A stretch of DNA of 64,000 nt from Neoarius graeffei (taxonomy: Eukaryota; Chordata; Actinopteri; Siluriformes; Ariidae), in contig NC_083582.1 in the NCBI RefSeq assembly GCF_027579695.1, forward strand, positions 352,378 to 416,377, written 5' to 3'. This document shows, one piece after another, positions 7,855-62,909 of this stretch; the stretch's first letter is position 1; each line of letters starts with the position of its first letter. Made by a program: the position numbers and the translations under genes. The notes beneath the pieces were generated by a model. That model was not told where the DNA came from. It worked only from the letters and a program-made list of their open reading frames with translations, and did not search any database.

Positions 7855-8494
7855 GCCCACAAGTAAAATAGTATCAGTTAAATAATAAGATTATGTGCCA
7901 GGTGCCCTTATAAAGCACTTAATGATTTGTCAAATATTATGTTAGTCATTATATATGAGGTATATCAGTTTTTTTTGTTTGTTTTTTTATCTCATATTTT
8001 ATTTAAACTACCTATTAAATACTTGTGTATTAATGAACATATCTAAAACTATGTCTGCCATACACATATATGTACTGATTTGTTTATCAAATATTGTGTT
8101 GAAGCAATCAGTCTGTTGAATAATCTAATGTACTCCTTCAAACAATTAGTGTGTCTCACAAATAATACCAATTGCAAATGTCATGATCTCTAGTTTAGCT
8201 TATTTCAGTATTGAAGCATCAGATCATACAGGATTAACCACACTGACACAGTATAAGCATCGATTCAAATGAATAAATGCATGTCAGCAATTGTATGTAG
8301 CTGTAATTGGTTCACTTGCATGTGTGTTCCAATTTATTGTTACCTGTACTATTTTATACTGTATTTCTTACTAGTTTCCTCCTTTGCAGGTTTCTTTGTT
8401 TATGCAACATTTTACACTTATGGCTTATTGTACAAATGCTTTATTATAATGTTATTGATTTTGTCACATTTTGTTTCATTACCTTACATAAGTT
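7855..8494. other. Spacer between LINE ORF1 and ORF2
   Basis: AT-rich sequence between the stop of ORF1 and the first plausible ATG of ORF2. It contains T-runs near 7968-7990. Open frames of 60-80 codons here are low-complexity and match nothing I recognise. It probably belongs to the LINE as an inter-ORF region. Confidence 0.5.
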
Positions 8495-10949
8495 ATGATC
8501 CTGGATGATGATATTTTAAAACATGCAGGTGGTGTTGAATGTAATTCTCTAACTCACATAATGCATAGTAATGTATCAGATGATGATGAGGATCACCAAA
8601 TTGAATTTATAAAACATTCACCTTATTATGACTATGATGCATTTAAGGATTTAACTGATAAAAAGAAAAATGTATTTGTAATATTTAGCACTAATATTCA
8701 ATCAATTAATGCAAAATTTAATGAATTTAATCTGTTTATAGAATCCTTACAAGTAACTGATTTTCACTTCAATGTTATATGCATACAAGAAAGCTGGCTG
8801 TCTGCAAAATCTGATAAATCACAATTACAGTTAAAAAACTATGTAATGTTGGATCAACCCAAATCCTGTAGCCAGTATGGTGGTCTCGTTACTTATATAC
8901 ACAGTGACTTTGACTATGAAATTTTGATGAAATTAGATTATTTTTCTACGTGGGAAGGGCAGGTTATCAAAGTAAGTAACAAAGGTTCTAAGAAAAAACC
9001 AATAATCATTGTTAATATTTATAGGCCCCTAAGAGAACTAATTGCAGATTACTCCAGTTTTACTTCTGAACTTTCAACTATACTAAACCAATTAGATAAA
9101 AATAGTAATATAATACTGGCTGGTGACTACAATATTGACCTACTTAAAGTTAACTCAAAAAATCACATCAGTGACTACTTTGATATGCTGACAAGCTATA
9201 GTTACTACCCAAAAATCACTCTTCCAACACGTTTCTCAAATAAACATGGTAGCCTCATAGATAACTTCTTCTGTAAATTATCTGAAGAAACCATTAGCAC
9301 TAGTTCTGGTATATTATTGACTAAATTTTCAGATCATCAACCATATTTTACCTTTTTAGACAACTACCTTATCACTAAACAAAGATCAAAATATGTTAGC
9401 CTATCACTGCAAAACACTGAGACCATCAACAAATTTAAAGATGAAATTGCATCTCTTTTGCAAAAGCATAATATTAACACAGACAATAATGTTGATCCAA
9501 ATGAGACATATTTACTACTACACGATGTCATACAACAAGCTAAGAAAAAGCATCTTCCTACGAAAATAGTCAAATTCAACAAGTATAAACACAAAAAATC
9601 AGCATGGCTGACTGAAGGCATTTTAAGATCAATAAAATACAGAGATAAATTATATAGAATAAAAAAAATCAACAGACCCTGAATCTCAAGAGTACATTAA
9701 AGCTAAAACTAATTTAGATACTTACAGCAACATCATTAGGAAACTTATCCGCATCTGTCAGTGTAAATATTACAACCAGCTTTTTGACAAGTATAAGTCA
9801 GATATTAAAAAAAACATGGAAAGCAATAAATAATATTCTCAATAGGACAAGTAAAAAGAAAGATTTTCCAATTTATTCCAGAGATAATGACAAAATTATA
9901 ACTGACAAATTAACTATTGCTGAAAAATTTAATGACTTTTTTATTAATATTGGAGGAAATTTAGCAAAAGGCCTAACATCATCCAATCCACTTGACTTTA
10001 AAAAATACCTAAAAATTAATGTTCAGTGTAAACTTTCTTTTCACACTGTTTCTCAGAATGACATTGAAAAAATTATAGATAAGTTAGCACCTAAAACCAG
10101 TTATGGATTCGATGAAATATCTACAAAGCTATTAAAAAGTATTAAATCTGTACTATTGTCACCAATTTTAATTATAGTTAATCAAATGATAACCACTGGT
10201 ATTTTTCCAAATTTGTTAAAAATAGCCAAAGTCACTCCTGTCTATAAAAAAGATGATGAAACACAGTTCTCAAACTACCGCCCCATTTCATTACTTCCTT
10301 CTATGTCAAAAATATTTGAAAAAATTATATATAATCAACTTTATGACTATTTTCATGCTAATAAATTATTTATAAATTCTCAATATGGCTTCCGATCTAA
10401 TCACTCAACAGAATTTGCAGTTCTTGAACTAACTGATTGACTTATCTATGAGCTTGATAATAATAATATACCATTTAGTGTTTTTTTAGACCTTTCTAAA
10501 GCGTTTGACACCTTAGATCATACTATACTTAAAATTAAACTAAGTCATTATGGAATACAAGGTCTATCTCTATTACTCTTGAAAAACTATTTATCCAATC
10601 AGAAGCAATATGTATCATTTGAAGATCATAACTCATCTCATCAATCTTTAAACATAGGTGTTCCCCAAGTATCCATTCTTGGCCCCCTACTTTTTTTATT
10701 ATTTATATGAATGATATAACAGCAAGTAGTAAGCTTTTCTCATTCATAATATATGCAGATGACACAACCTTACAAACAACTGTCAAAATAGATTTAAATA
10801 ATGAACAAATTACAAACATTTCTACAGTAAATGATGAATTACAGAAAGTAAACAACTGGTTGCTGTTGAATAAGTTATCACTGAATGTTAATAAATCTAA
10901 ATTCATTGTATTTCATACACCACAAAAATCAGTTGGGCACATTGATCTC

Positions 10950-11311
10950 ATCTCATCTCATTATCTCTAGCCGCTTTATCCTTCTACAGGGTCGCAGGCA
11001 AGCTGGAGCCTATCCCAGCTGACTATGGGCAAAAGGCGGGGTACACCCTGGACAAGTCGCCAGGTCATCACAGGGCTGACACATAGACAACCATTCACAC
11101 TCACATTCACACCTACGGTCAATTTAGAGTCACCAGTTAACCTAACCTGCATGTCTTTGGACTGTGGGGGAAACCGGAGCACCCGGAGGAAACCCACGCG
11201 GACACGGGGAGAACATGCAAACTCCACACAGAAAGGCCCTCGCAGGCCCCGGGGCTCGAACCCAGGACCTTCTTGCTGTGAGGCGACAGCGCTAACCACT
11301 ACACCACCGTG
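10950..11311 (-). mobile_element. tRNA-derived SINE, copy 1, in LINE ORF2
   Basis: A full SINE in minus orientation. Its tRNA-like head (near 11311) reads GTGTAGTGGTTAGCGCTGTC (A box) and GGTTCGAGCC (B box) on the minus strand. The body contains the typical AACCTAACCTGCATGTCTTT stretch, and the tail end near 10950 is a run of ATCTC units. It is bounded by a 17-bp duplication, TTGGGCACATTGATCTC, at 10933-10949 and 11312-11328, the mark of LINE-mediated insertion. It is younger than the LINE ORF2 it interrupts. Confidence 0.92.
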
Positions 11312-11391
11312 TTGGGCACATTGATCTCCAAATAAACAATACTTCTATTGAAAGAGTCAGTACATTCAATTTTCTTGGTCTAACAATAAAT

Positions 11392-11756
11392 CTCATCTCA
11401 TCTCATTATCTCTAGCCGCTTTATCCTGTTCTACAGGGTCGCAAGCAAGCTGGAGCCTATCCCAGCTGACTACGGGCGAAAGGCGGGGTACACCCTGGAC
11501 AAGTCACCAGGTCATCACAGGGCTGACACATAGACACAGACAACCATTCACACTCACACCTACGGTCAATTTAGAGTCACCAGTTAACCTAACCTGCATG
11601 TCTTTGGGGGAAACCGGAGCACCCGGAGGAAACCCACGCGGACACGGGGAGAACATGCAAACTCCGCACAGAAAGGCCCTCACCGGCCACAGAGCTCGAA
11701 CCCGGACCTTCTTGCTGTGAGGCGACAGCGCTAACCACTACATCACCGTGCCACCC
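11392..11756 (-). mobile_element. tRNA-derived SINE, copy 2, in LINE ORF2
   Basis: Second copy of the same SINE family, same orientation, about 80 bases downstream of copy 1. The target duplication CTAACAATAAAT lies at 11380-11391 and 11757-11768. It is about 10 bp shorter in the body than copy 1 around GTCTTTGG. Together the two copies interrupt adjoining codons of ORF2. Confidence 0.92.
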
Positions 11757-12869
11757 CTAACAATAAATGAAAACCTCAATTGGAAAGATCATGTTGACAA
11801 AATTGCAAACAAAATTTCTAAAACTTTAGGCATACTAAACAGATTAAAAAGTATTTTACCCCTTGATGCAAAAATAAAGATTTACAATTCTCTTGTGTTA
11901 TCACATCTAAACTTTGGTATCTTACTTTGGGGATTTAATTGTGAACAGATTTTTAAGATTCAGAAGAAAATTATTAGAGTCATTTCATGTGCTAAATATA
12001 ATTGTCATACAGAACCCTTGTTTAAGAACCTCCATTTGTTGAAGCTTGAAGATATTTTCTACTTACAGAAGCTTAAATTCTATTTCAAATATCATGAAGG
12101 CACTCTTCCCAGCTATTTTCAATCTCTACCTTTTAATATTGTAACTCCAATTCATAAAACACGCTCATCAAGTCAAATTTATCAACCAAGCACTAAACAC
12201 AAATTTGCTGAAAAATGTGTTAGATATGATCTACCTCAAACTATTAAATCCACACCAAAAATCATTCTAGAAAAGGTTCATACACATAGTCTTCAAGGGA
12301 TCTCTTCATATGTTAAACGCTATATCATTCAGAACTATAGTGTGAGCTGTAATATTGTGAATTGTTATATATGTTCTAGATAGATGTTCTTCATATATAT
12401 AAAATAATATTGTTTATACACCACTGACTGCATGCCTACTATTATGTATAATGCTTAAGTATGTTATATATGCAAGATTGTTCAAAAGTGACATTGCTAT
12501 GTGTAAATTTATCAAGATAAGTCAAATGTGAATTTTACCACAAACCTAAACATTGTATTATGAAAATCTAAAAAAAAGTTAATTACAAATATTTTATGTT
12601 CCTGCAGGGAGCCTAAGGTGGCCTGCATGATAGCGGTTTTATTTTCATTACCTTAATGTAGGTCCTCTGGATCTTTCATATTTCCTATTTCAAGTATTTT
12701 TGCTTTTTTATGCTTTATGTATGTTTGTTGAAGATCCAAATAAATAAATGAATTCTGAAAAATTCTGAATTCTCTTGCTTCACTCAGCTGATTTCTCCAT
12801 GGCAAAGTTCACATCCATGCCCAGGTTTGATTTTTGTTGGAGTTTCAAACAACTTTACACTGTCCCATT

Positions 12870-14823: not shown

Positions 14824-14895
14824 AGTCTTTATGAAGGTAGGATAGTGCCATATATCCGAAGAAGAGCAGACTATGATTTGCACTTGTAAAACCCG

Positions 14896-15060
14896 TAATT
14901 CGCAACTTGTGAATGCGCATCTCAGAGTTTGTAAGTGTAACTTCAGATCCACACATCTGCAAAAAGCAAACTGCAAGCATATTTCACAACTTGTGAAAGC
15001 GCATCTTCGAATTTGCACTTGTAACTTCAGATCTGCAAAGCTGCACAACAGGATTTGCAT
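14896..15060 (+). repeat. Two imperfect subterminal tandem units in the TIR
   Basis: Units starting near 14899 and 14985 share ACTTGTGAAxGCGCATCT, TGTAACTTCAGATC and GCAAAxxGC-type segments. The same pair is present inverted in the right arm (about 24179-24343). Repeated subterminal motifs of this kind are often transposase-binding sites; that role is inference. Confidence 0.6.
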
Positions 15061-15229
15061 GTGCAGGTTCCTATTTGCTCGCTCAGTTGCGTCATCCTTC
15101 TCACGTGATTTTTGGCACGATTCACTCGGATGGATTTGAAGGAAACGATTTGCGCGCAGAGACCAGGAATGCCTGTTCTACCACTTTTGTCCAGGAGGTG
15201 GCAGTGTGGTTATTGGCCATGCAAAGTCG

Positions 15230-15237
15230 TATATAGG
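15230..15237 (+). promoter_or_regulatory. TATA-like box in left TIR
   Basis: TATATAGG lies about 66-73 bases upstream of the ATG of the TIR-encoded first exon. The inverted twin lies at 24002-24009. It is the best visible core-promoter candidate for the HECT gene (left) and the transposase gene (right). Confidence 0.5.
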
Positions 15238-15302
15238 GATAATATCTCAATAAACGGCTCTGTGGCCATGAATCTTGGTCTGCGACACGGCGCCACGAAA
15301 GC

Positions 15303-18300
15303 ATGGAGGGAAGAGGTGTTCAACAACGTGTAAGTAACATTATGGTTTAAATGTCTTATAGTTGACTAACTCTGTAATATACACGGTTAGTGAAATTATC
15401 CTATTTGAGGTAATGTGCACGTAAAAGCAGCCTTGAAGAATGAGGTAATTAGGCTATCTTGACAGGCTAAGTTGGCTAACTATATTGTAATACACGTGTA
15501 GTAACATTTACAGTTAGCGAAATTATCCTAATAGAGCAAATGTGCGAGCGATACAGCTTGAAGAGTATAGGTAGTTATCCTGAGAAGCTACGTTAGCTAA
15601 CTGTATATAATTGTGCTTGTAACATACGTGTAGTAGGCTAACGTTTCACATCAGTGGCGGGCTGACCATCAGGAGCATCGTGACGATTCCCACATATGTC
15701 GATGGGCAACATTAGATTGCAAATATCCAAGTTAGCTAATCAGTCCCTCCAGGATTGCGTTGGCCTTTTTGTGATTTTTGCGGCCTAAAATATCTTGTTT
15801 CGCGGCACCCTTTAAAAATGCAGTGAATGTTGTAATGTGTATAGGCATACGGGAGCAAGTGAAAGTTTAAGTATGTGGAAACATTTAAATTCCGTCAGTC
15901 ATTACGTTTTTCACGTTTCTTTTCCAAACAGGTCAGTATACGGGATGCAGCACAGAACCTCCTCTCTGTCTTGCAACCTATTGTCCAGCAATTGCCAGAT
16001 GAACCTGTGGGAACATCTCAACCGCAAAGTAACCTAACTGCAGGGCAACAGCCTACAGTTCATCAGGAAATGACCAGGTTTGACCTTTGAAAATCATATT
16101 AACCAAAATAAACTGTTCAACAAATGAGGAGGAAATAAACACCATCCACTTTGTGCACATGCACCTGTCCCTATCTTGTAATACTCAGTGGTAATATTTG
16201 TGGCATTGGTAATTGCTGACTAATTGCTGGTGATTGCTGACCTTGTATTTTTGACTTGTGCTTTTCTGATACTAACTCAGCTGAACTTTGAATACTCAAA
16301 TTTACACCCTTGATATTTCATCATGTGAAAGTTGTCACAGTCAGTAAAATGGGAGCTGCAGTGCTTCAACACATGAATTGAATAGAAATATCAATGACTA
16401 TACTACAGCTGCAAAAAATGGTTTCTTAAGTCAACAAAATGACTGAATGTCTTTTTTTTTTTAAGGTCATTTCCTGGATTGTTCCAGAGAGGTCAAAGAG
16501 GTAGAAAGAGGCCATATGTTGGAGTAAGGCAAAATGTCTCGGTCTCCAAGACATGCTCTTTTATTTTTTACCTGCTTCCAAAGACCATGAGCCGCACACC
16601 ACAGCCGTCTGATGAAGTATCCTATTTGATGTCAGGGCTTGGCCGGAGGAATGTTTCTATGTCAGAGGACAGTGACCATACCCAGGTACAAACTAATTTA
16701 CAGCTGATCTTATATTAGCATTTCGGCCTGTATCAGATCTGTCTTGAGCTTAAGTTGTATCTTCTCTTAGATCACATCACTTCTAACCCAAGAGTTTCCC
16801 AAAATGGGGAATTTAACTGGGGGATGGCTCCTCTACAAAGCCTCAGGTAGCATTTACTGAACTAGACCTCACGTTATTCAAATAAGATTAAAATTATTAT
16901 GAAAGAGTAATATAAATCTGTGTGTGTGTGTTCTTTTTGTATAGGAGGCACTGGACAACGCAAGCTAAGCTTGCTTCCACCCGAAGCAGAGGGGTACTCT
17001 GCCAGACAGTTAAAAATTGCTTCTAACAATGGCAAAAACACACTATTCATTATGCCTCTGCAAGAAGAACTTGATACAACTCCCCTCCCACAAGATGACA
17101 GTTTCTTTTCAAAAATGCCAAAAAGTGACTGTAAAAAATGTGGGTCAAGCATGCCGGTGCATGTTCTGCTAGTCCATCTGGAGAAATGTCAAGGGACACT
17201 ACAGGTTCACTATTTTACTAACAAACCTATAATGATGATAAATATCTGTACTTTTATGTCCAGCGCATTAATAGGCCTGCTATTTACAACACAGTAGCCT
17301 ATACAGTTGTTGACAAGGTTCATGATGAGGTGTAAATGACTTCTTGAATTTTTCTGGTGTACTTTTTAACGTTATGAATCTGTTAAATACTAACAAATAT
17401 ATTAATAATATAACTGTACTGCTTAGGTTATCACTACACTTATCAAGTACATAAAGTAATTTTTCCCGTAGAGGTTGTCTTTCAATAATGATGTCCCTTT
17501 TAAAGTGAAAATTCTCTCTTTGATTGTATTTCTGGAATGTAGTAACGCACAGTATGTGTTAATAGTTTCAATTTCCTTCAAAATCCAGGACTCTGAAGCA
17601 TGTGATGAGATCCCAGAGGACAATGCAACATGTCCAGTGTGTTCATGTGTATTCTCCTCTGCCACAATTGAAATGCATGCCAGCATGTGTGGTGAGAGGT
17701 AAGTACTTTGATTTATTCAGTCAGTTTAGAAATGACTAAAGTTATGTACAATAGTCCATCCAAAAATAATCGAAAAGAGTTGTGTAACATACATGGTTGT
17801 CATTATTGTTACTGTGTATATCACAGAAAAATCTGATCATCAGAAACATGTGTCACACTCATGGACTTCCTTCACCACTCTCTGGACATTTGTGTTTTGG
17901 CCACTAGATGTCGCCCTTGTGGGCTAGCCTCATGTGATGTTACCTTTCCTATTGTGTCCTTGGTTGATTACTCTCACCTGCACCCTGTTACTCTGGTCAT
18001 GTGCCTGCCTTGCCACCCATTAGCCATTTTGTATTTAAGCCATGTGTTTCATTCAGTCGTTGCTGAGTCTTCGAGGAGAACACAGTAAGGAACTCTCTCT
18101 TGTTTTCACTGGTTTCCTTGTTCTGAAGTACCTATGCCCTGTTCCGCCTATGTTTTGCCTTATGGATCTTCTGTGCTTTTTGTGGACTGAAATCACCTTT
18201 TGGATTACCTGTTAAACTTACCTCGTGGAATATTTCTGTTTGGATTTTCTGTGTTTTTTGTGAACTGGATTTGCCTATTCTTTTCCTGTTGACCCGCTGT

Positions 18301-21092
18301 GCTAACTGGAATTATCTGTTTGAGAAACTGAGCTTTTGCCTTGAGTTACTATTGGAATAAACCCATGCACTAAAGACTTTCGTTAGCCTGCTATTGAGTC
18401 GTACCATTCTCAGCTCAGTAGACTGGTGGGTTGTCCACAGATTACCACCTGGGAGACCTGGGTTCTAAGAACCAAGTGTAACAACATGGATATTATCTAC
18501 ATTTATAATCAATCTTTTACTTCTGTAGGGTAACATTTTATTTACATGTGCTACCATAAGAGTGACATGACACTACTTACTGTTTTGGAAAAAGAAACGG
18601 GTTTGTGAATGTCAGAATTACATTAATCATTGTGTTGTATTTATACTACTAGGGACATCGATCCATCAGATGGCACAGTTGGAGGCGAGTTGGAGGCCCT
18701 AGAAGGTCCATCCAGAAGTTTCTCAGTAGTAGCACCCACTGATTCTACTACAGATGGTATAACAAGATTTGTTAACAAGTGTAATTGGAAAAAATATTTA
18801 TGGGATACACACATTCAATCTGACTTATTTTTCCTCACTCTACTATTTGAACAGAGTGGCAAGTAGCCTCGGACCCTGCTAAAGCTGCCATACTGTTCAG
18901 AGAGGCTCTTCTCAAAACGCATGACTCTGGACCCCCACTGTGTTTAAGGATGGATTTAAGAGAGAGCCCAGAAGGACAGGACAATTGTTGCATTCTATAA
19001 AGCACACCAAAAAAACTGGGCAGGTCCATTGAATTGCAAATTGGAGGGTAAGAATTACACAAACTTAAAAATTATGTGCTCTATTGAATTGAACACTTCT
19101 CATGTCCATCCTAGGGGACACTGCTATTGGAGAGGGGGTGACCCGTTTCTTCTTCTCCATCTGCATGCAAAAGCTGAGATCAGGCTTTTCTTTGAACTGT
19201 GGTGAATATAATTTTATTCTGTGCATTTTTTTTGTTTTTTTAAGAATTGTATTCAATGAACAGAATGTTCATCTGTTAAGGTTGGTATATTTGTCATTTT
19301 GAATGCAGGAAATGCCAATATCACTCAGCTTTTTGAGGGTGAGCCAGACTACTTGGTTCCTTCGTCATCACTGCTCGTTGACAGCGACCTTTTCCAGATG
19401 GCTGGAAGGATGCTGGGACATAGTTTTCTCCATGGTGGCCCAGGTTTTGTGGGAATGAGCCAGGCAATACTACACATCCTCCTTGGCGGAAGCCTTGACG
19501 TGGCAACTGTAACCATAAAGGACTGCCCAGATGTCGACATTCGTGAAACAATCACTTTGGTGTGTTGAGTTGAAATAACTGTTGGCCTTGCATTGTCCAA
19601 AACGGTGAACATTTTCCAAATGTCATGCTTGCATTGTTTCTGTTTTTACAGCTTGATGGAACATCAGAGCTATCAGAACAAGAGAAAGCGCGTGTTCAGA
19701 ATTTGGCCTTTGCATGGGACCTTCCCAGAGTAACTGAAAATAACCAAAGATGGTTATGTGAAAAAATGCTTCTTCATTCTGTGAGTCCTACTTTGCAGTT
19801 ACTGTATTACTAGAGAGCAGTACTGTAGATGGAGCAAAAGATTCAATGTGCACTTAGTCTAGGCATTTAACACTTGTGCCTCAATTACAGATTTTTTCCC
19901 GTTAGGGTTCCTTGGGGAGAAATCTGTCCACATAAAAAGACTGCCATAACAGATAATGAGTTTATTTTTAACCAACATTAGTCCTGTTAACATGTATAAA
20001 ATATAAATTAATTTTCAGGATTTCAATTCTATTTTAAATGTGTTTCATATGGGTTTTTAATGGAAAAAATAATTATTCACAATCACAGCATTTAGCAACA
20101 GCATTTACTAAGTGATGTTCCGTTTCATGGCCATGTCGATAGCTAATTCCTCAAACCTTATTTTATACAAGACGTTATCCATGGACCAAGGACACTGCAT
20201 TCCTAACATAAAAATATTTCTCATTTTTAAAGGTCATTGGACGCACCACCAGACAAGTGAAGCAACTGCGCAAGGGTCTAAAAGAGACTCATCTCTGGCA
20301 TCTCATGACAGAAAAACCTGATGTGGTACCCTTAATTTTTCCAAGGGAGAAGGATGCCTCATTGACTTCAGAGGTAAAACAAAAATGCTTAAGTGCCAAG
20401 TGCATAGCCTTTAAGGGGAACTGTGGTTGATCTCAGATCTAACTCTAACCTTCTGAAAATGTTTCAAGGCCATTCTACGTGTAATTACCTGGCCCAGTGC
20501 TACAGATGACGACTCTGAAGATGAATGTCCAGTCGAAACTACAAGTCGCATAACAGGATACCTTCGTGAATTTATTGAGAATGGTAGGTGACCAGTTATT
20601 TGTAACGTCTAAAGAATATTTTCTATATTTTACTTTGTCATGTAAACGTGCTGTGTCAGTTAATGTCTGACTGTTCTCGGTTTACGTCCATGTCCACTCA
20701 TAATCAGTATTAAGTGTCTTAGTATTAGTATCTTATACCATCCATATACATGCTGCAGCTAATACTGATTATGACTGGACATGGATGTAAACAGAGACCA
20801 CCCAACTTCAATTTGTTCAAGAATCCATCATTTTGTAAAGTATGGTCAACAGACATCTGGTCTTTCACCTGCAGCATCCAGCAATGACTGGAAAGAACTG
20901 CTGTGTTTTTGGACTGGATGGGAGGTCTTGCCCCGTGAACTCATTGTCGCGATGACTTCATCAAAGTACCCAAGAGCAGCAACTTGTTTTGAAACACTCT
21001 GTCTTCCCACTCATTACACTGATTTCAGGCAGTTTCAAAAGGACCTAGAGGCGTGCATCAAAACAAGCAACACTGGATTTGGACTCATATAA
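15303..21092 (+). CDS. HECT-domain E3 ubiquitin ligase (G2E3-like), cargo of the transposon
   Basis: Predicted spliced gene. The first exon (15303-15329, MEGRGVQQR, donor GTAAGT) lies in the left TIR. Further exons with good AG/GT borders and matching phase are 15932-16077, 16466-16685, 16771-16846, 16945-17204, 17589-17698, 18653-18756 and about 18853-19049. Then come about 19115-19200, 19309-19560, 19652-19780, 20233-20373, 20469-20581 and 20876-21092. The N-terminal half has RSFPGLFQRGQRGRKRP and two Cys/His clusters (CKKCGSS...HLEKC; CPVC...H...C). The C-terminal half is a HECT domain: GEGVTRFFFSICM, LFEGEPDYLVPSSS, AGRMLGHSFLHGGPGF, and the end AATCFETLCLPTHY...GFGLI, where the Cys is the expected thioester residue. 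The family resembles fish 'G2/M-phase E3 ligase-like' proteins. Exon 8 needs a 1-base frame shift near 18950-18980 to stay open, so this copy may be dead. Substrates are unknown. Confidence 0.8.
17851..18483 (+). repeat. Solo LTR in an intron of the HECT gene
   Basis: A 633-bp solo LTR starting TGTCACAC and ending GTGTAACA, flanked by the 5-bp duplication ACATG (17846-17850 and 18484-18488). TATTTAAG near 18030 and AATAAA near 18356 fit promoter and polyadenylation parts in + orientation. No internal retroviral or retrotransposon sequence remains, so the family (Gypsy or ERV-type) cannot be fixed. It is younger than the transposon. Confidence 0.85.
20674..20803. repeat. Hairpin-forming inverted repeat in an intron
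   Basis: GTTTACGTCCATGTCCACTC at about 20679 is mirrored by GACTGGACATGGATGTAAAC near 20773, and CATAATCAGTATTA by TAATACTGATTATG. The arms are about 40 bp with a loop of about 45 bp, in the last intron of the HECT gene. It may be a tiny MITE remnant. Confidence 0.65.
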
Positions 21093-21350
21093 CAAGTGAC
21101 ACAGGCATAAAGTTATTTTGATTGACTTTCTACAGTATATGCAACCTTTCATGTAATTTCATTCAATTTTTTAAGGTTTAGGTTCTCTGGAATGACTGTT
21201 TTTGTCTTTGTAGAAGCACTGCCTGTTAAGTGTGTCAACATCTAAAAAGTGAAGAAGGGAAAAAAAACATTAAAAGCACTGTAAAACATCAGCATGTTTA
21301 TTTATTTAAGTAACAAAAGTGGACATTAACATTGTGGTAACTACAATATT

Positions 21351-23936
21351 TTAACTTGCAAGCATATTCTGCACCACTTGCAGAGTTGCCAGGTACTGGT
21401 CTGTGCCAAAGGACAAAGATGGAGCCGTTGGATTGACCCTTTGTTTCAACTCCTCCATTTGTGCACTGCTCAAAGGGCAAGCAATTGAAGGCACAGTAAC
21501 CCCAGGGTTTGGATCTGTTCTCAGTCCACTGCTTTCCCAGTCAAGCAGGGGAATGTTTAGCACCTGAAAGTGATATTAAAACAAAGTCATGATCCCATGT
21601 GAAACACTTGTTCACTATCTTGGGATAAAATGTATATTTTAAAAAGGTGCAGTCTTCTTCTCCAATCTAAAAAAATCTTTATGTTGGAAAACTGGTTTAG
21701 AACAGTACATTATTTCAGTCTCAAGAGCACAGAAAGGAGTGTCATAATTTGACTGTGGAACAATACAAAAATCCATTTGCCAGAATGGCAAATTGCACCT
21801 TATAGCTGTCTGTGTAGATTCTCATTCATCCAGGTCATGGTAGTCAAAGGAGTTAAGTTGTAAGCAACTGGACTTCTTGTTGGAGCTTGAAGACATTTCA
21901 CCTTTTATCCAAAAGGATTCTTCAGTTCTGGCCTGATGTTGGAAACCAGGAGTTATATCTCACTCCAATTCACACCTTGACGGGTAACTCATGACCCCTT
22001 TGTCATGGAAATGAGGGGTGTGGTTCACACCTCCAGTGATCCAGAGATATAATTCCTGGTTTTCAAACATCAGGCCAGAACTGAAAAAGCCTTGGGGATA
22101 AAAGGTGAACGGTCTTCAAGCTCCAACAAGAAGTCCAGTTGCTTACAACTTAACTCCTTTGACTATCTTCCACACAGTTATGTAAACTCCTTTAGTTCGG
22201 TGGTTGTGAATATCACCACTTTTAATTAAACATCAGGCATGATTAAACAAAAAAAAAAACTAACCTGATCAGTTTGTGATTGGTGTCAATGTGCATGAGA
22301 AACCTTGGGCTCGGAACAAAGTAGCTCCGTCTCACCACACACCCAAGGTTTATCATGCGGGAATACACACCAAGGGTGTCCACCCTATGCAGTGATGCTC
22401 GGATACGATCCCACTGCACTTTGTGTCCTTCTGCCTCCAATGCCCCTTTCATCATGCGGTATCCTGCATGTGGCATCCTGGTTTTAATCTCAGACACAAT
22501 CCCATCAAGCTGCTCATTTGAGAGGTTGCTGTAGGAGGCCCTAACACTAAGGTTGAACTCCTCCATCCGCCGACGCACTGTTCTGATGGACACCCCAAGT
22601 AAATCAGCAATTGTCAGTACAGGGAACGACAACTCCAACAGGCTGCTTATTTGCTCGTCAGAAATGAGTGTCTTTGGGTGCCCTCTTGCACCTTGCTCCA
22701 TACTCAATGCTGTTACTTTTTCTTGATCGATCTCAGTGTTGATCGTATGGTCCAGTTCATCTATTCCTGCAATTACCTCTGCTGGAATAGTGACTTGACC
22801 TGCTATGGCACTGAGAAAAACTCTCTCCTGACAACATACAAACTGCATGAAGTCCATGTCCAGGTGTGGCTGTTGCAGGACATGTTCCAGGCGTGTAAGC
22901 AGTCTTTGAAGGACATGACGCAACAGTGCCTGTAAATAAAAGACAATTTTCCATTGTTATTGTACTATACATGAAAGGCACTTAGCAAACATACATAGGT
23001 TCTGCATCAGTTACTGCACTTTTATCTCCCTTAACAATGGGATTCTCTTCCTTGATTGGCTGATGGGGTGGCCATTAACGTCGTATAAATGGCCTACCTT
23101 TGAAGTAGTCCCCAAAAAAGTAATCACCGTTCCATATCAATGCACTTATGAATGGTAACAATAACAGTAGTAAAGTACCGGTAGCCAAATAACTATTGAC
23201 TGACAAATCATGGACAGCGGAGAAAATATCGAAAAACCATAGTCGTATAAACATGTTTATATGTCTAGGGGAAAATGATGTACAAAATAGATTTAAAAAT
23301 GGTCTCTCCTTATGTCAATTAAGTTCTCTGTTTGAATATCGTTTTTTTCCTGAAAAACAGGAGGGAAAGCCGCCAATAGTCACTGCAGCACTCAGGAAAA
23401 AATAATACTGCTCCTCTCCTCTCTCAGTGGAGGTGGATACTCTGTGCAGCCCAAAGACAGGCAGCGCGTTTTAATATACCACAATCCAATGTTGCCCATT
23501 GTCATAGGTGTGTTTAATTGCTTACTATATTATTGCTGGTGAAGTTGACTGTTTAAATCAGGCTAACTGTCAGGCCACCAGGAGTGGTCCTGATGGTCAG
23601 CTCGCCACTACTGTGAAACGTTAGCCTACTATATACAGTTAGCTAACGTAGCTTCTCAAGATAACTACCTATACTCTTCAAGCTGTATCGCTCGCACATT
23701 TGCTCTATTAGGATAATTTCGCTAACTGTAAATGTTACTACACGTGTATTACAATATAGTTAGCCAACTTAGCCTGTCAAGATAGCCTAATTACCTCATT
23801 CTTCAAGGCTGCTTTTACGTGCACATTACCTCAAATAGGATAATTTCACTAACCGTGTATATTACAGAGTTAGTCAACTATAAGACATTTAAACCATAAT
23901 GTTACTTACACGTTGTTGAACACCTCTTCCCTCCAT
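21351..23936 (-). pseudogene. IS3EU-like transposase gene lacking its DDE core
   Basis: Minus-strand gene with a candidate first exon in the right TIR (23936-23910, MEGRGVQQR, donor GTAAGT), a main exon at 22929-22265 and a last exon at 21563-21351. The main exon joins in phase (ALLRHVLQRLLTRLEHVLQQ). It contains a helix-turn-helix (FPVLTIADLLGVSIRTVRRR), a second DNA-binding part (ELDGIV/SNLSNEQ, RIRASLHRVDTLG), and the start of the integrase-like catalytic domain (FLMHIDTNHKLIR, where the Asp is the first catalytic residue expected). The rest of the core ('HGxIDGxSR' and beyond) is not found between 22260 and 21570. A fold-back element occupies part of that interval. The last exon encodes a short tail, LNIPLLDWESSG. 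This copy could not cut DNA by itself and would need help in trans. Confidence 0.75.
21838..22172. mobile_element. Fold-back (palindromic) MITE
   Basis: Left arm (about 21838-21965) and right arm (about 22053-22172) are inverted copies sharing GTCAAAGGAGTTAAGTTGTA, AGCAACTGGACTTCTTGTTG and TTCAGTTCTGGCCTGATGTT, with a spacer of about 90 bp. Related phrases (AGCAACTGGACTTGCTT, ATTCTCAGTCATCCAGGTCA) occur at the end of the Penelope element near 57120-57200. This copy may therefore be a Penelope-derived fold-back rather than a DNA-transposon MITE. Confidence 0.7.
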
Positions 23937-24409
23937 GCTTTCGTGGCGCCGTGTCGCAGACCAAGATTCATGGCCACAGAGCCGTTTATTGAGATATTAT
24001 CCCTATATACGACTTTGCATGGCCAATAACCACACTGCCACCTCCTGGACAAAAGTGGTAGAACAGGCATTCCTGGTCTCTGCGCGCAAATCGTTTCCTT
24101 CAAATCCATCCGAGTGAATCGTGCCAAAAATCACGTGAGAAGGATGACGCAACTGAGCGAGCAAATAGGAACCTGCACATGCAAATCCTGTTGTGCAGCT
24201 TTGCAGATCTGAAGTTACAAGTGCAAATTCGAAGATGCGCTTTCACAAGTTGTGAAATATGCTTGCAGTTTGCTTTTTGCAGATGTGTGGATCTGAAGTT
24301 ACACTTACAAACTCTGAGATGCGCATTCACAAGTTGCGAATTACGGGTTTTACAAGTGCAAATCATAGTCTGCTCTTCTTCGGATATATGGCACTATCCT
24401 ACCTTCATA
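23580..24409 (-). repeat. Right long terminal inverted repeat
   Basis: Inverted copy of 14830-15685, nearly identical in the outer 0.78 kb. It carries the twin first exon (23936-23910) and twin TATA-like box (24002-24009) facing the transposase gene. The inner end near 23580 fades with CTGACCATCAGGA-type homology. Confidence 0.92.
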
Positions 24410-24493
24410 AGTCTTTATTATTCTGCCCACTTTGTGCTTTGCACCAGTTCCACTGGAAGCAAACCAGCCACAGAGAATTTTAGCTTCTAGCAG

Positions 24494-45585: not shown

Positions 45586-48321
45586 TCAGAGATTTTTGGC
45601 CAAGAAAACCAACATGTCGACCTTTGCTGGTTTTAGACTTGCACGCTGACATGTGACAATATTGCCACTGGCACTGAACAGTCTCTCTGATGGTGAGCTT
45701 GTAGCTGGTATGCAAAGGTACTTCCGAGCCAATTTGCTCAGCCATGGAAAGTTGACATGGTGCACTCTCCACCAGGCCAGTGGATCTTGCTCTCCATCAA
45801 TAGGAGTTATGAGGTAGTTGTCCAGTTCTGCTTTAATGGTATCCTCCAACTGCACAGTAGAGGAGGAAGCAGGGACAGGGTTAGGGTTAGCTTTTGCTTT
45901 CGCTTTCCTGTAGAGGTGGATGGTGGTTCTTCTGCTGCACTCGGGGGCATGGGATGGGTTGTGACACAAGCCCTCTGCTCCTGCAACACACAGGAATAAG
46001 AGCCATCAATGTTTTGCTGTCAGTTGTGATTAAGACCAACCACCAGGCATTTTGTGTGTAAAAGTTTAAAAATGCCAGTAGTATAGTAAAAATATAAATT
46101 GTATTTGTGTAACATTTTGTATTACGAAACAAAGAAACAGGACAGCTTACCTTTTGTGCCATCTGTTCCATTTCCATCTTCACTCTGTCTTTGATGTATG
46201 GGACATTCTCTTCACTGATGTAGGCCGTCTTGAATCTCGGATCAAGGAATGATGTGATGTCCAGGAGCTCCTGTGTCACTGGGTCATTGTATTTGTCTTC
46301 AATGTAGTGGAGAGCTCTTGATTTTATCTCCTTGGTCAGATCCGTGTTCTGGTCACTTTCAGCAAGCGTTGATGTTCTTAGGAGATGAAGCACTGGCTTC
46401 AGGTATGACACGCTTACGTAGTCCTCACCTGAGAGGGCGTCTGTGAACTCCTGAAGAGGACCAAGGGCAACGTTTATGGATTCAAGGACATCTGTGTCTT
46501 GCCAAGTGGGGACCAGGTGCCGTGTCTTTCTGTCTTCAGACAGAACCTGGCACAGTGCCTTGCTCTGCTCCAACACCCTCCCAATCATTTTCTGCCGTGA
46601 GCCCCATCGTGTCGGACATTCAGTAATCAGTGAGTGTTCAGGTAAGTCCTGCTGTGCCTGTTTTAGCGCCGCCTTCTTCTTCCAGCTGTGAGTGAAGACC
46701 CCAACCAGCTGCTTGCAAAGTCCTGTGGCCCTTTTGACTCTTTGGTCATCTTTGACAGCATTTTCTGGGGAAAAAAACATTACATGAGTATTACAGTCTG
46801 AAAAGCCATAAGGATAGCTCATAACACAGTATCCATAATATACAATGACTGTATACAGTCATTAATAATATATACCATTGATTACATCTGTTGTCATCTT
46901 GTAAGAAAAAGCATTCAGAGGAAAAAAAAATGCCACTGCATCTCTCTGCCCCTAGGCATTCCACAGTTAAACACAAGCAGTATTGGGAGACTTTAAAGTT
47001 TACCCATGAAAGGATTAATTTTTCTAGTCTTCTCACAACCCGTCTTAAAATGCAGATGATCCACGAGTTACACATATGTATATTGAAAACCTGTGTTCTT
47101 GAAGCATTTTGCAATAAACTTGTGTGAAATTAATGCAAAATATTGAATATAAAGCTGCTAATGGCGATAGACAGCCTTTCTATGGCGTTTGTATTGTTAA
47201 AGTAGCCTTGCGCTAACAGTTTGTCAGCTAACGACAGCTTGACGGCAAACTTGTCAGTGTTTCGTTTTTTCCCCTCCCAAACTGTATTTCAGTGTTCCGA
47301 AACAAAGTCAAGACCTACTTCAGGCAAACAAATTATGATTGTTACCGGTAAACTGACTTTAAGGGACAGAGAGGGCAGAGTAATATAGCAGAGACTAGAG
47401 GGACTCTGCAAAGGTAATACACACTCTTAATTACAAAAATACACACTCGCACAAACACAGGTTCCTGTACTTACCAATTGCAAGATGCAGTCTGTGTCCG
47501 AAACACTGCAGTCTGGTCCATTGGTTAAGTTCCACTGCTTTTATCATATTTGTAGCGTTGTCTGTTGTTATGCACGTCTGGGCCTCTTCTTTTAGACCCC
47601 AGCTTGACAAACACTCTTTCAGCCCCATGGCAATATTCTCTCCGGTGTGGTCAGTGGGGAAGTATGCGGTCTGCAGGCAGCGACTTCTCAACTCGAAGTT
47701 GGCATTGACGAAATGCACCGTCAGACTCATATATGGCTCGGTCGTTCTGCTTGACCACATATCAGTAGTTGACGCATAAAACTCAATATCTTCCAGCTCT
47801 TTCGCCACCTTGGCCTTACATTCTGCGTAGAGCTGTGGGATGGCAACCTGATTAAAGTATGTGCAGGAGGGCAGAACATACCTCTTATCCATTGTGCGGA
47901 GTAAACTTTTAAACGAGTCTTTGGTGACCGTGTTTACAGGCACCATGTCCTTCGTAATGTAGTTTGTTACTGCAGCAGTTATCTCCTTGTGTCTTTGGCT
48001 ACTTCTGTCATACGGAGTTACACTGGCAAAAGAAGTTGTAATTGTCTGTTTGGCCGAAGTACTTTCACTACTACTAGACGTCTCGTGGGTCTTTTTCGCC
48101 ATGCACTCTTCATGCAAATTCACGTGGTGAACTTTCAAGTGGCGGTATAAATTAGTAGTGTTTCCACCGGATGTAGCCACTTTTGCATGACATGTTTTGC
48201 ACAGCACCTGTTTCTGATGTTCATCTGAGGCTTCAAATCCAAAATACTGCCAAATGGCCGACGTGCTGTTTTTCTTTGGGATCAAATCCCCTGACTCCGC
48301 TTCAGCTCTTGCTTCAGCCAT
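45586..48321 (-). CDS. BED-finger hAT transposase (ZBED-type), three exons
   Basis: Exons 48321-47475, 46764-46151 and about 45985-45586 have consensus borders (GTAAGT / CAG) and matching phase at both joints. Exon 1 starts MAEARAEAESGDLIPKKNST and has a BED finger (IWQYFGF, CKTCHAKV, NLYRHLKVHH). It continues into the RNase-H-like core (STTDMWSSRTTEPYMSLTVH, where the Asp is the first catalytic residue; DNATNMIKAVEL). Exon 2 carries CPTRWGSRQKMIGRVLEQ and FLDPRFKT. Exon 3 ends with the dimerisation motif SSPSERLFSASGNIVTCQRA. One frame change occurs in exon 3 near 45870-45890, in a CTAACCCTAACCCT run. Otherwise it is open, about 600 residues as usual for the family. Confidence 0.85.
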
Positions 48322-48599
48322 GTCTGAAATTGAATGACCAGCTACACTGATTGGAGTGGATAACACGTGACCTGTCCATGCGCAGCATGCAGCTTCTTGA
48401 TTGGTGGCTGACACAGAGTGTTTTTACACCATGCTGGGGCAATACACAGAGCATACATGTGTGAAATTATTGACGAAACAAAACATGGGTCAGTTTAGGA
48501 GCACTGAGAAAAAACGCGGCTTTGACGATCCCAAAATCGTGTTGTCGGAGATCGCGATTTTCGGTCGAAAATGATAGATCGTTCAGCCCTAATCCACAA

Positions 48600-60554: not shown

Positions 60555-62856
60555 CAAAAGAAGATGGCACCTGCCCTGTCGGCGACTTGCTACCTGTAGA
60601 GTGATCGTTTGTTTGTCAGTCTTGTTTCTCAAACACAATTCATTGTTTAACGTCAAAAATCACAAGCAACATGTTTGGACTTAAGGTGAACATATGTGTG
60701 CTACTGTGGTTTATTTTGTGGAGTGGATGTATCCGTTTTGGAATACAATGTCTCGGAGTGGCTGATACGGCTGCGGTTGTCTCCTACACTGTGGGAGAGT
60801 TGTGCAGCATTCGGGATAGAATGATCAACGATGACTGTCCAAAATGGGATTTACCCCCGGAGATGAAACGGAGGAAAAGAGGCCGACGCAGTGGTGTAAA
60901 GGTTCGAAACAGACACATGAAGCACAAGCCTGTTCTCCCGTCTGTGATTATGGGAAACGTGCGCTCCATAGTCAACAAAGTTGATGAATTAGCGTCGCTG
61001 GTGAGGTATAACAGACTATACCGACAGTGCAGCCTTCTGTGCTTTACGGAAACTTGGCTTACGGATTGCATTACTATGGCTTATATGGAAATGGATGGAT
61101 TTACAATGATCCGACATGATAGGGATCCTGAGAAGGCAGGCAAGAAATTGGGCGGTGGTGTCTGCCTGTACGTTAACAATCAGTGGTGTCATCCTGGACA
61201 CATTACGGAAAAGCACAGAGTGTGTGACCCAAACATTGAACTACTGGCGGTGAGTTGCAGACCCTATTTCCTTCCACGGGAGTTTACGAATGTCATTGTA
61301 ATCGTAACATACATCCCACCATCTGCCAATGCTAAATTGGCAACTGACTTGATATCAAGAGTTGTCCATGAACTTCAGAGTCACACAACAGACGCTCTCA
61401 TTGTGATTAATGGTGATTTTAATCACTGTACCCTCTCCGCGTCGCTGCCCTCATTTAGGCAGTTTGTCAACTGCCCAACGAGGGGCGAAAAAACTATTGA
61501 CCTTTTTTATGCAAATATTAAAGATAGCTACAAATCTACTGACCTCCCTCCACTTGGGAGGTCGGACCATAATCTAGTGCTCCTTTCCTCGAAGTACACC
61601 ACTTTGGCTCGTAGACAGCCTGTTTCTACAAAAACAGTGCGTGTATGGTCAAAGGGGGCGTGTCAGGATTTGCAAGACTGTCTGGAGTGTACCGATTGGT
61701 CTGTTTTCTATGATGAAGACTCTAAAGAGGTGGATTGTGTGACTGACTGTGTTACTGATTATATTAAATTCTGTACGGATTTGCTTATCCCATGTAAAAC
61801 TATAAAACTTTATTCTAACAATAAGCCATGGATTACTAAGGACATTAAGGATGCAATTAATGAAAAGAAAGCTGCCTTCATGAGTAAGAACAAGGACAGG
61901 ATCAGAGTGGCACAAAAGAATGTAAAGGTTGCCATTAGGCAAGGAAAGAATAAATACAAGGACAGAGTTGAGAATAAACTACAGGAGTGTGACACCAAAG
62001 GTTTATGGAATGGACTTAAATCAATAACAGGGTTTGGTCCTGTCACTAGCAACCTGAATGGGGAAACATTCACACCTGATGAGGCTAACCTTTTTTATGC
62101 AAGATTTGATTGCACTGTGAACTCAACTGATCATCACATACCAGTGCATTACATTACACCATTACAGGAGGAAGAGGGGCATCCATCTCTCTATCCTCCA
62201 GTAACCATTACTGTTGAGGAGGTACGCTCTCAGCTAAGAAAGCTCAATGTAAATAAGGCCCCTGGTCCAGATGGGATCATGCCACGTGTCCTTAAAGTAT
62301 GTGCTGATCAGTTGTGTGATGTTTTACATTATTTGTTTACCTTGTCCTTGTCTGTCTCAAAAGTCCCTGCTATATGGAAAACATCCTGTATTGTGCCAGT
62401 GCCTAAGAAACCCAATGCCAAGGCTCTTAAAGACTTGAGACCCATTGCCTTGATCTCCCATGTCATGAAGTGCTTTGAGAGGACAATACTGGGGCACCTG
62501 AGGGCACAGGTCAGTGCCTTTCAGGACCCGCTGCAATTTGCTTACCGGGAGGGTGTTGGTACGGATGATGCTCTTATTTATTTGTTGCACAGGGTGTACA
62601 GCCATTTGGAGACCTCTGCTGCTTCTGTGAGAATAATGTTTTTTGATTTTTCTAGTGCTTTTAATACCCTACAACCTCACATTTTAGCCAAAAAGCTTTA
62701 TGGTTTTAGTCTTCACAAATCCACTGTAGGTTGGATCACTGACTACCTCACATGTAGACCGCAATATGTAAGAATACAAAATAGCACTTCTGAGACTATT
62801 AAGACAAACATAGGGGCACCACAAGGAACGGTGTTATCTCCTTTTTTATTTACTTT
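60555..62856 (+). mobile_element. CR1/L2/Rex1-type LINE, young, cut by hAT
   Basis: Starts near AAAGAAGATGGCACC, has a 0.1-kb leader and one long open frame of 729 codons to the hAT insertion at 62857. No stop or frame change is seen over 2.2 kb, so it is the youngest LINE here. The rest of the RT and the 3' end should lie beyond the hAT, outside the window. Confidence 0.88.
60671..62856 (+). CDS. LINE ORF2: endonuclease and reverse transcriptase, open but interrupted
   Basis: ATG at 60671 followed by a hydrophobic segment (VNICVLLWFILWSGCIRFGI). AP endonuclease: IMGNVRSIVNKVDELASLVR, CFTETWLTDCI, GGGVCLYVNNQWC, VTYIPPSANAK, INGDFNHCTL, LGRSDHNLVLL. A linker (NNKPWITKDIKDAINEKKAA) follows, then reverse transcriptase: LNVNKAPGPDGIMPRVLKVC, VPVPKKPNAKALKDLRPIAL, FAYREGVGTDDALIYLL, MFFDFSSAFNTLQP and GAPQGTVLSPFLFTF (motif B). 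The catalytic ADD motif would follow but is cut off by the hAT insertion. The last seven in-frame codons and stop (to 62881) are hAT sequence. All visible endonuclease residues (N, E, D/N, SDH) are present. Confidence 0.9.
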
Positions 62857-62909
62857 CAGGGATGTGAGTGACAAATTTTAAAAAAAGAGGAAAATTTTTA
62901 GGCTCAACA

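Follow-up and report, generated by a model that had tools for sequence, protein, structure and literature searches.

The 64,000-nucleotide window analyzed here (Neoarius graeffei, contig NC_083582.1, positions 352,378 to 416,377) contains an element that we read, with a probability of roughly 0.88, as a damaged copy of an IS3EU-type transposon that normally carries two convergent genes, one for a DDE transposase and one for a spliced HECT E3 ubiquitin ligase. The copy is probably a recent one with internal damage. A previous reading made without database searches (the sequence-only reading) had placed an element at 14830-24409, with AGTCTT duplications, TAT..ATA ends, and inverted repeats of about 0.8 kb, and both the coordinates and the alignment of the terminal inverted repeats (TIRs) agree with that description (Table 1). 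The outer 750 bp of the left and right TIRs are identical, with a single difference across the full 780 bp. The gene layout consists of a plus-strand, 14-exon HECT gene convergent with a minus-strand DDE transposase gene.

Copies lacking a HECT gene, which the sequence-only reading had named as the finding that would speak against it, were sought in the 2.34-Gb N. graeffei genome. A 161-bp TIR query gave 80 matches, the best 40 of 43 candidates were scored, and the window was compared with 22 other loci (23 in total), with HECT matches counted only above 60% identity. HECT exons are present and convergent with transposase exons in all 15 copies having both ends, including the window. Eight loci without a complete end pair in the stretch fall outside this count (C25, C18b, C8, C21b, C2d, C16, C28, and C22b); six of them have no coding match, C21b has HECT alone, and C2d has both genes in part. 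Since C3 and C24 are short by 3 and 28 nt at one end, comparison of the target-site duplications (TSDs) was restricted to 13 copies, all of which have TATGAAGG..CCTTCATA termini. Matching 6-bp TSDs (AGTCTT, CATACA, CAGGGG, CAAAGA, AATGTG, and GATCAA) flank six of these 13. The transposase DDE core occurs in 4 of the 15 copies (C6, C2c, C18a, and C22a of the window family). The HECT frame is open from start to stop in two of five modeled copies, C2c (694 aa) and C22a, and shifted in the other three (C18a, C21a, and C9). A class of about 6-7 kb (C10, C3, C2a, C2b, and C26; L010, L012, L015, L016, and L019) has the TIR ends, part of the transposase, and no HECT exon except the last, and is non-autonomous. 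Together, the TSD-flanked copies and the internally deleted class suggest a unit that was mobile recently and a family of autonomous and non-autonomous members.

The same pair of genes is found in other families. The genome searches covered the best 60 of 331 and 64 of 345 candidates for HECT, and the best 90 of 638 and 89 of 609 for the transposase. With the window family left out, the matches listed comprised 38 HECT loci and 53 transposase loci, and for 19 of the 38 listed HECT loci a listed transposase locus was no more than 30 kb away, where 0.05 would be expected by chance. All 19 paired loci are convergent. Four further loci read as DNA hold both genes, one of them between matching 6-bp duplications. 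This locus represents a separate family (the C6 family) with 385-bp TIRs that are 94% alike, TATGGTGTTA..TAACACCATA termini, the TSD TCCTCT on both sides, the transposase on the plus strand, and HECT on the minus strand. Three loci listed as having only one of the genes (C17, C23, and C9:32.42 Mb) all proved to have the partner when the DNA was read. The C17 locus has inverted repeats of at least 369 bp with convergent HECT and transposase genes, and the C23 locus has HECT on the plus strand and the last transposase exon alone on the minus strand, followed by nested repeats. At C9:32.42 Mb, which belongs to a distant transposase lineage, a plus-strand transposase and minus-strand HECT pieces lie between inverted repeats that are about 1.36 kb long and 92% alike; the HECT pieces were matched by tblastn (best 1.5e-8 and 3.4e-8) and by a hidden Markov model of A1 (1e-9 and 1e-8). 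The N-lobe exon at this locus, searched alone, had no match in Pfam or PDB, and it is called HECT because of the tblastn matches with HECT relatives and the hidden Markov model matches. One weak plus-strand HECT tblastn match (3e-4) was taken as chance. By eye, the region C9:32420500-32434000 (L042, L043) also shows tandem repeats at one end and a HECT of more canonical type. Protein evidence extends the HECT-transposase pairing to fish of other orders. In viral contigs, three stretches matched the pattern for the transposase P0128 and 21 that for the HECT protein P0003, and none was confirmed.

The first coding exon lies within the TIR, so that the HECT and transposase proteins both begin with the nine residues MEGRGVQQR; because the TIR is present at both ends, exon 1 is identical in the two genes. 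The TIR carries ATGGAGGGAAGAGGTGTTCAACAACGT followed by a GTAAGT donor, with a TATATA sequence 73 nt before it, and the left TIR has the promoter-like patterns TATATAGGG at 15230 and ATTGG at 15212 (pattern matches only in each case). According to the gene model, exon 1 joins a different second exon in phase 0 in each gene, and the public Neoarius protein P0121 begins with MEGRGVQQRALLRH, the predicted transposase exon junction. Exon 1 is found at both ends, with at most two mismatches, in 9 of the 15 two-ended copies. A TIR-held coding exon accounts for the identical N-terminus of two unrelated proteins encoded by one element.

Similar shared starts were found in other fish by comparing 120 HECT with 202 transposase proteins (window of 14, at most one mismatch). 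In ten HECT/transposase pairs, 8-14 N-terminal residues match before the sequences diverge, and 200 shuffles of the test gave a maximum of 8, reached once. Shared starts of at least five residues are near chance (13 pairs versus 1-6 in 30 shuffles) and those of at least six arose in 93 of 200 shuffles, so the count was limited to at least eight residues. Two of the ten pairs use one transposase, which leaves nine element types. Six pairs are each within one species (Acanthochromis, Carassius auratus, Triplophysa rosa, Trichomycterus, Nothobranchius, and Leuciscus), and three others combine HECT and transposase from what we take to be related species. Consecutive gene names occur in three HECT/transposase pairs (Triplophysa LOC130563200/201, Astyanax AMEX_G24213/24214, and Misgurnus LOC129441489/490), and the Triplophysa pair has both a shared start and consecutive names. 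The shared N-terminus may thus serve as a mark for pairing the genes of an element using protein data alone.

Co-inheritance was examined with 13 pairs, consisting of nine shared-start pairs with distinct transposases, the window, one pair with a 5-residue start, and two pairs joined by consecutive names. The HECT and transposase distance matrices are correlated (Mantel r = 0.77, a value reached in none of 10,000 permutations), with r = 0.86 for the ten shared-exon pairs, window included. The pairs examined show HECT and transposase remaining together while many element families diverged within teleosts. Alternatively, the HECT gene could be a host gene captured once by the window element, or a separate nested insertion, irrelevant to the family. 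Transposable elements commonly capture host genes, and the HECT domain has cellular relatives in AREL1 and ITCH. However, the pairing holds in every two-ended copy, in further families, and in fish of other orders, its orientation is the same wherever the DNA was read, and the divergences of the two proteins track each other, so that HECT is better seen as a resident second gene of an IS3EU-type lineage than as a local capture, to which we give almost no chance. Capture unique to the window locus is ruled out by the 15 copies and the convergent pairing in other families; a single ancient capture in an ancestor would still fit the two-gene transposon.

Conservation, counted among the proteins reaching each column, bears on whether the HECT gene is a decaying passenger, kept without selection only because the copies are young. 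Broken HECT frames in the window copy and three of five modeled copies are as expected of a passenger, as is the retention of only the last HECT exon in the 6-kb class. Yet 99 of 102 HECT proteins retain the catalytic Cys, and the first-finger ligands are kept in 89/91, 91/92, 94/96, and 93/98, across families up to 76% different, which is unexpected without selection and makes the passenger explanation very unlikely. The second-finger ligands are kept in 68/76, 71/77, 69/96, and 71/98, and the transposase D/D/E residues in 200/200, 130/134, and 128/136.

The sequence-only reading had described a plus-strand gene of about 14 exons ending in a HECT C-lobe, and the 14 exons, the HECT match, and the catalytic-Cys motif stand, with a frame that is broken in exon 8. 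All 13 introns are GT-AG, and the phases are continuous save at the exon 8 break, where a frameshift leads the frame into a stop; exon 8 is open in copies C2c and C22a. Pfam HECT (PF00632) matches the window protein at residues 423-691 (E = 1.7e-14), and its TCFETLCLP aligns to the catalytic-Cys motif (TCF..L) of AREL1; in a profile of HECT relatives, this motif aligns to both AREL1 and ITCH. The model of the relative P0003 matches the HECT structures of HUWE1, UBR5, and SMURF. TM-scores for the whole model are low, which probably reflects its disordered parts; stronger evidence comes from the VIA alignments over about 368-748. The window protein is thus a HECT-family ligase by its profile, its C-lobe catalytic Cys, and the modeled bilobal fold of P0003, with a predicted activity. 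C2HC zinc-finger-like motifs are visible by eye in exons 5 and 6, and those of relatives give weak profile matches to XAF1_C and RNF125, which fall short of the curated cut-off or have an E of 0.005. By eye, residues 102-209 of the predicted structure m0340a5cd3060 form a confident N-terminal domain with a strand and helix order like that of a ubiquitin-like fold.

The proposed minus-strand IS3/integrase-like transposase was likewise upheld in part: full-length relatives carry the PF24764 integrase core, and residues of about 231-405 of these relatives, including the second D and the E, are missing from the window copy. The site of the missing core exons is occupied by a foldback repeat (21841-22165) with 105-bp arms that are 93% alike. 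Without the second D and the E, the window copy cannot be autonomous, and the HECT frame break together with the core loss rules out that candidate. In the relative P0128, 34 residues separate D2 from E, and a fold search with its model matched IstA, TnsB, foamy-virus integrase, and Mu. These fold matches came from the structure search; searching PDB with a profile of the transposase alignment yielded two weak matches and nothing more. The N-terminal part of the transposase, where IS3EU members would lack an HHCC zinc motif ahead of the core, gave only weak helix-turn-helix matches. Two Larimichthys crocea proteins (P0123 and P0207) are 95% and 98% identical to the window transposase exon 2 over 197 and 100 residues, respectively, and other fish transposases among the matches listed are mostly about 40-65% identical. 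The near-identity between croaker and catfish points to either horizontal transfer between distant fish or contamination.

Table 1. Features of the transposon copy, with positions numbered from the first nucleotide of the window.
Feature	Position	Strand	Remarks
Whole element	14830..24409		9,580 bp; ends TATGAAGG..CCTTCATA
Left target-site duplication	14824..14829		AGTCTT
Right target-site duplication	24410..24415		AGTCTT
Left TIR	14830..15609	+	780 bp; promoter-like sequence and first coding exon inside
Right TIR	23630..24409	-	99.87% identity to left TIR across 780 bp
Direct 69-nt subrepeat pair, outer TIR	14896..15048		80% alike; mirror at 24191-24343
HECT exon 1 (MEGRGVQQR)	15303..15329	+	within left TIR
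HECT exons 2-4	15932-16077, 16466-16685, 16771-16846	+	gene model, tblastn of relatives
HECT exons 5-7	16945-17204, 17589-17698, 18653-18756	+	gene model, tblastn of relatives
HECT exon 8	18855..19047	+	frameshift in window copy
HECT exons 9-11	19115-19201, 19309-19559, 19652-19780	+	HECT-domain part (exons 9-14)
HECT exons 12-14	20233-20373, 20469-20583, 20875-21092	+	through catalytic Cys to stop
Transposase last exon	21351..21563	-	stop at low end
Region without relatives' DDE-core exons	21564..22264		contains foldback repeat
Transposase exon 2	22265..22929	-	helix-turn-helix-like region and first catalytic D (HIDTNH)
Transposase exon 1 (MEGRGVQQR)	23910..23936	-	within right TIR; identical to HECT exon 1

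The 69-nt subrepeats in the outer TIR are possible candidates for transposase binding sites. Overall, the window contains many mobile elements; by eye, the open frames at 774-1673, 8492-12383, 45887-48423, and 60605-62881 resemble reverse-transcriptase and hAT-type transposon genes.

Several observations weigh against reading the element as a two-gene transposon. A partner was absent from the matches listed for 19 of the 38 HECT loci and for 34 of the 53 transposase loci. The TSDs mismatch in 7 of the 13 complete-ended copies, and those of C2a and C2b (CAGGGG and CAAAGA) match only when an extra outer 61 bp is counted at one end. Neither gene is intact in the window copy, and the transposases of other copies in its family are also damaged, with a stop beside the E in C6, a stop in exon 2 of C18a, and a frameshift in exon 2 of C2c; on the transposase side of C22a, exon 1 was not found within two mismatches. 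No single copy was confirmed to have both frames and both first exons intact. When the most diverged group is left out of the matrix comparison, r drops to 0.58 for the remaining nine pairs (90 of 10,000 permutations). Finally, the TIR-borne first exon is not universal, as the 385-bp TIRs of the separate C6 family end ahead of the likely start codons.

IS3EU elements are defined by TA..TA ends, usually a 6-bp TSD, and an IS3-like DDE transposase (PMC10045372). The window family shares TA..TA (TAY..RTA) ends, a 6-bp TSD, and an integrase-like DDE transposase with them; it differs in its HECT gene, which that paper does not mention, and its placement here is by features rather than by a tree with Repbase transposases (PMC10045372). 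The IS3EU termini are found in the 13 complete-ended copies and in the C6 family, the 6-bp TSD at the window (AGTCTT) and in the C6 family (TCCTCT), and the PF24764 core in the relatives and four copies, having been lost from the window copy. In maize MuDR, two genes are also read convergently from TIR promoters, with shorter TIRs and no known shared coding exon. MuDR likewise places a transposase and a second helper gene within one TIR element, and its excision is reported to need only MURA and its insertion both mudrA and mudrB, which may make it a parallel case of insertion depending on a helper gene; it has no ubiquitin ligase, MURB being a helper of unknown function (PMC2563033). Sharing the superfamily label, fungal IS3EU elements with a 6-bp TSD and TAYGG..CCRTA ends carry TET/JBP and alpha-kinase genes, and the alpha-kinase gene runs opposite to the transposase, as HECT does here; these are elements of fungi rather than fish, with HECT not mentioned among their accessory enzymes (PMC12730594). 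Intons, which Kapitonov described as complex elements derived from IS3EU in fungi and encoding several conserved proteins (5-6 for Entons and Intons), resemble the present elements in their IS3EU derivation and extra proteins and differ in being fungal, with no mention of HECT in the meeting report; the same 2012 talk refers in general terms to transposons with host-derived proteins (PMC3520738). HECT in IS3EU elements was not found in the open-access PMC literature, where none of 35 papers naming IS3EU refers to HECT, and Repbase or Dfam entries beyond that search may note a HECT frame. Judging from these comparisons, HECT-carrying IS3EU-type elements appear to be new, the IS3EU ends, TSD, and transposase being already known.

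Ubiquitin ligases are well known as counter-defense tools of viruses and bacterial pathogens. As both promoters would lie within the TIRs, expression of the transposase and ligase may be tied: the two genes share one 5' end in the window family, where the sequence suggests transcription from the TIR, and a ligase made together with the transposase could aid the spread of the element. The ligase may act on the transposase itself, either by limiting its dose or by marking the stable strand-transfer complex left after integration for disassembly and letting DNA repair finish, a possibility to which we give clearly less than an even chance. The shared 5' end predicts the co-expression that such control would use, the fold matches of the modeled transposase include retroviral-integrase and Mu transpososomes, and Mu requires ClpX for disassembly. 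Greater HECT than transposase divergence in four of the six closest comparisons (0.26 v 0.19, 0.40 v 0.31, 0.39 v 0.27, and 0.25 v 0.17; 0.34 v 0.35 in both of the remaining two), measured on whole proteins including linkers and not a selection test, fits host targets at least as well. Tentatively, and with a chance not far short of even, the ligase may instead be a counter-defense gene product that marks for removal a host protein involved in silencing or restriction, for example a repressor acting in chromatin silencing, small-RNA pathways, or DNA repair. The resemblance of the C2HC fingers to XAF1_C and RNF125 points in this direction, although such weak matches are no proof of function. 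TET/JBP genes of fungal IS3EU and other transposons are taken by the author as an aid to escape silencing (PMC12730594). Because of these fungal genes and the four divergence comparisons, we weakly favor a host repressor over the transposase as the target of the ligase; other roles of the ligase take up the remaining probability.

The proposal that G2E3-like HECT genes of fish are transposon cargo is supported for the relatives traced here, a scope short of all fish G2E3-like genes and of true G2E3. Of the 120 HECT relatives listed, 16 are named "G2/M phase-specific E3 ubiquitin-protein ligase-like" or similar, and the N. graeffei gene P0001, which has this name at NCBI, maps best to copy C21a. 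G2E3 proper has PHD/RING-type fingers N-terminal to HECT. The window protein has the HECT C-terminus in common with the G2E3-like fish genes, but a Pfam scan at E ≤ 1 found HECT alone, without a PHD-type or RING-type domain, and C2HC-like fingers (by eye) are present instead. Some of the fish genes that carry ordinary ubiquitin-ligase annotations are therefore probably transposon genes. Plainly wrong public names also occur, as P0067 and P0129 (a Labeo rohita transposase and a HECT protein) are named after unrelated bacterial or archaeal proteins. A wider scheme, which we consider improbable, would make HECT an ancestral, obligate second gene of an entire vertebrate lineage of IS3EU elements, co-expressed in some families via TIRs carrying a common promoter and first coding exon, and acting as an anti-silencing or transpososome-recycling factor; the G2E3-like expansions of fish would then be these genes, and some host HECT genes, possibly including vertebrate G2E3, would derive from them.

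If fish "G2E3-like" annotations may be transposon genes, gene-family counts, RNA-seq studies, and orthology would be affected. The elements also offer a directly testable system, with two genes, conserved active sites, and many similar copies in one genome. A DNA-transposon lineage with a retained HECT ligase of its own, encoded opposite the transposase, would, if true, be the transposon counterpart of viral and pathogen ligases, and it raises the new question of what use a jumping gene makes of a ubiquitin ligase.

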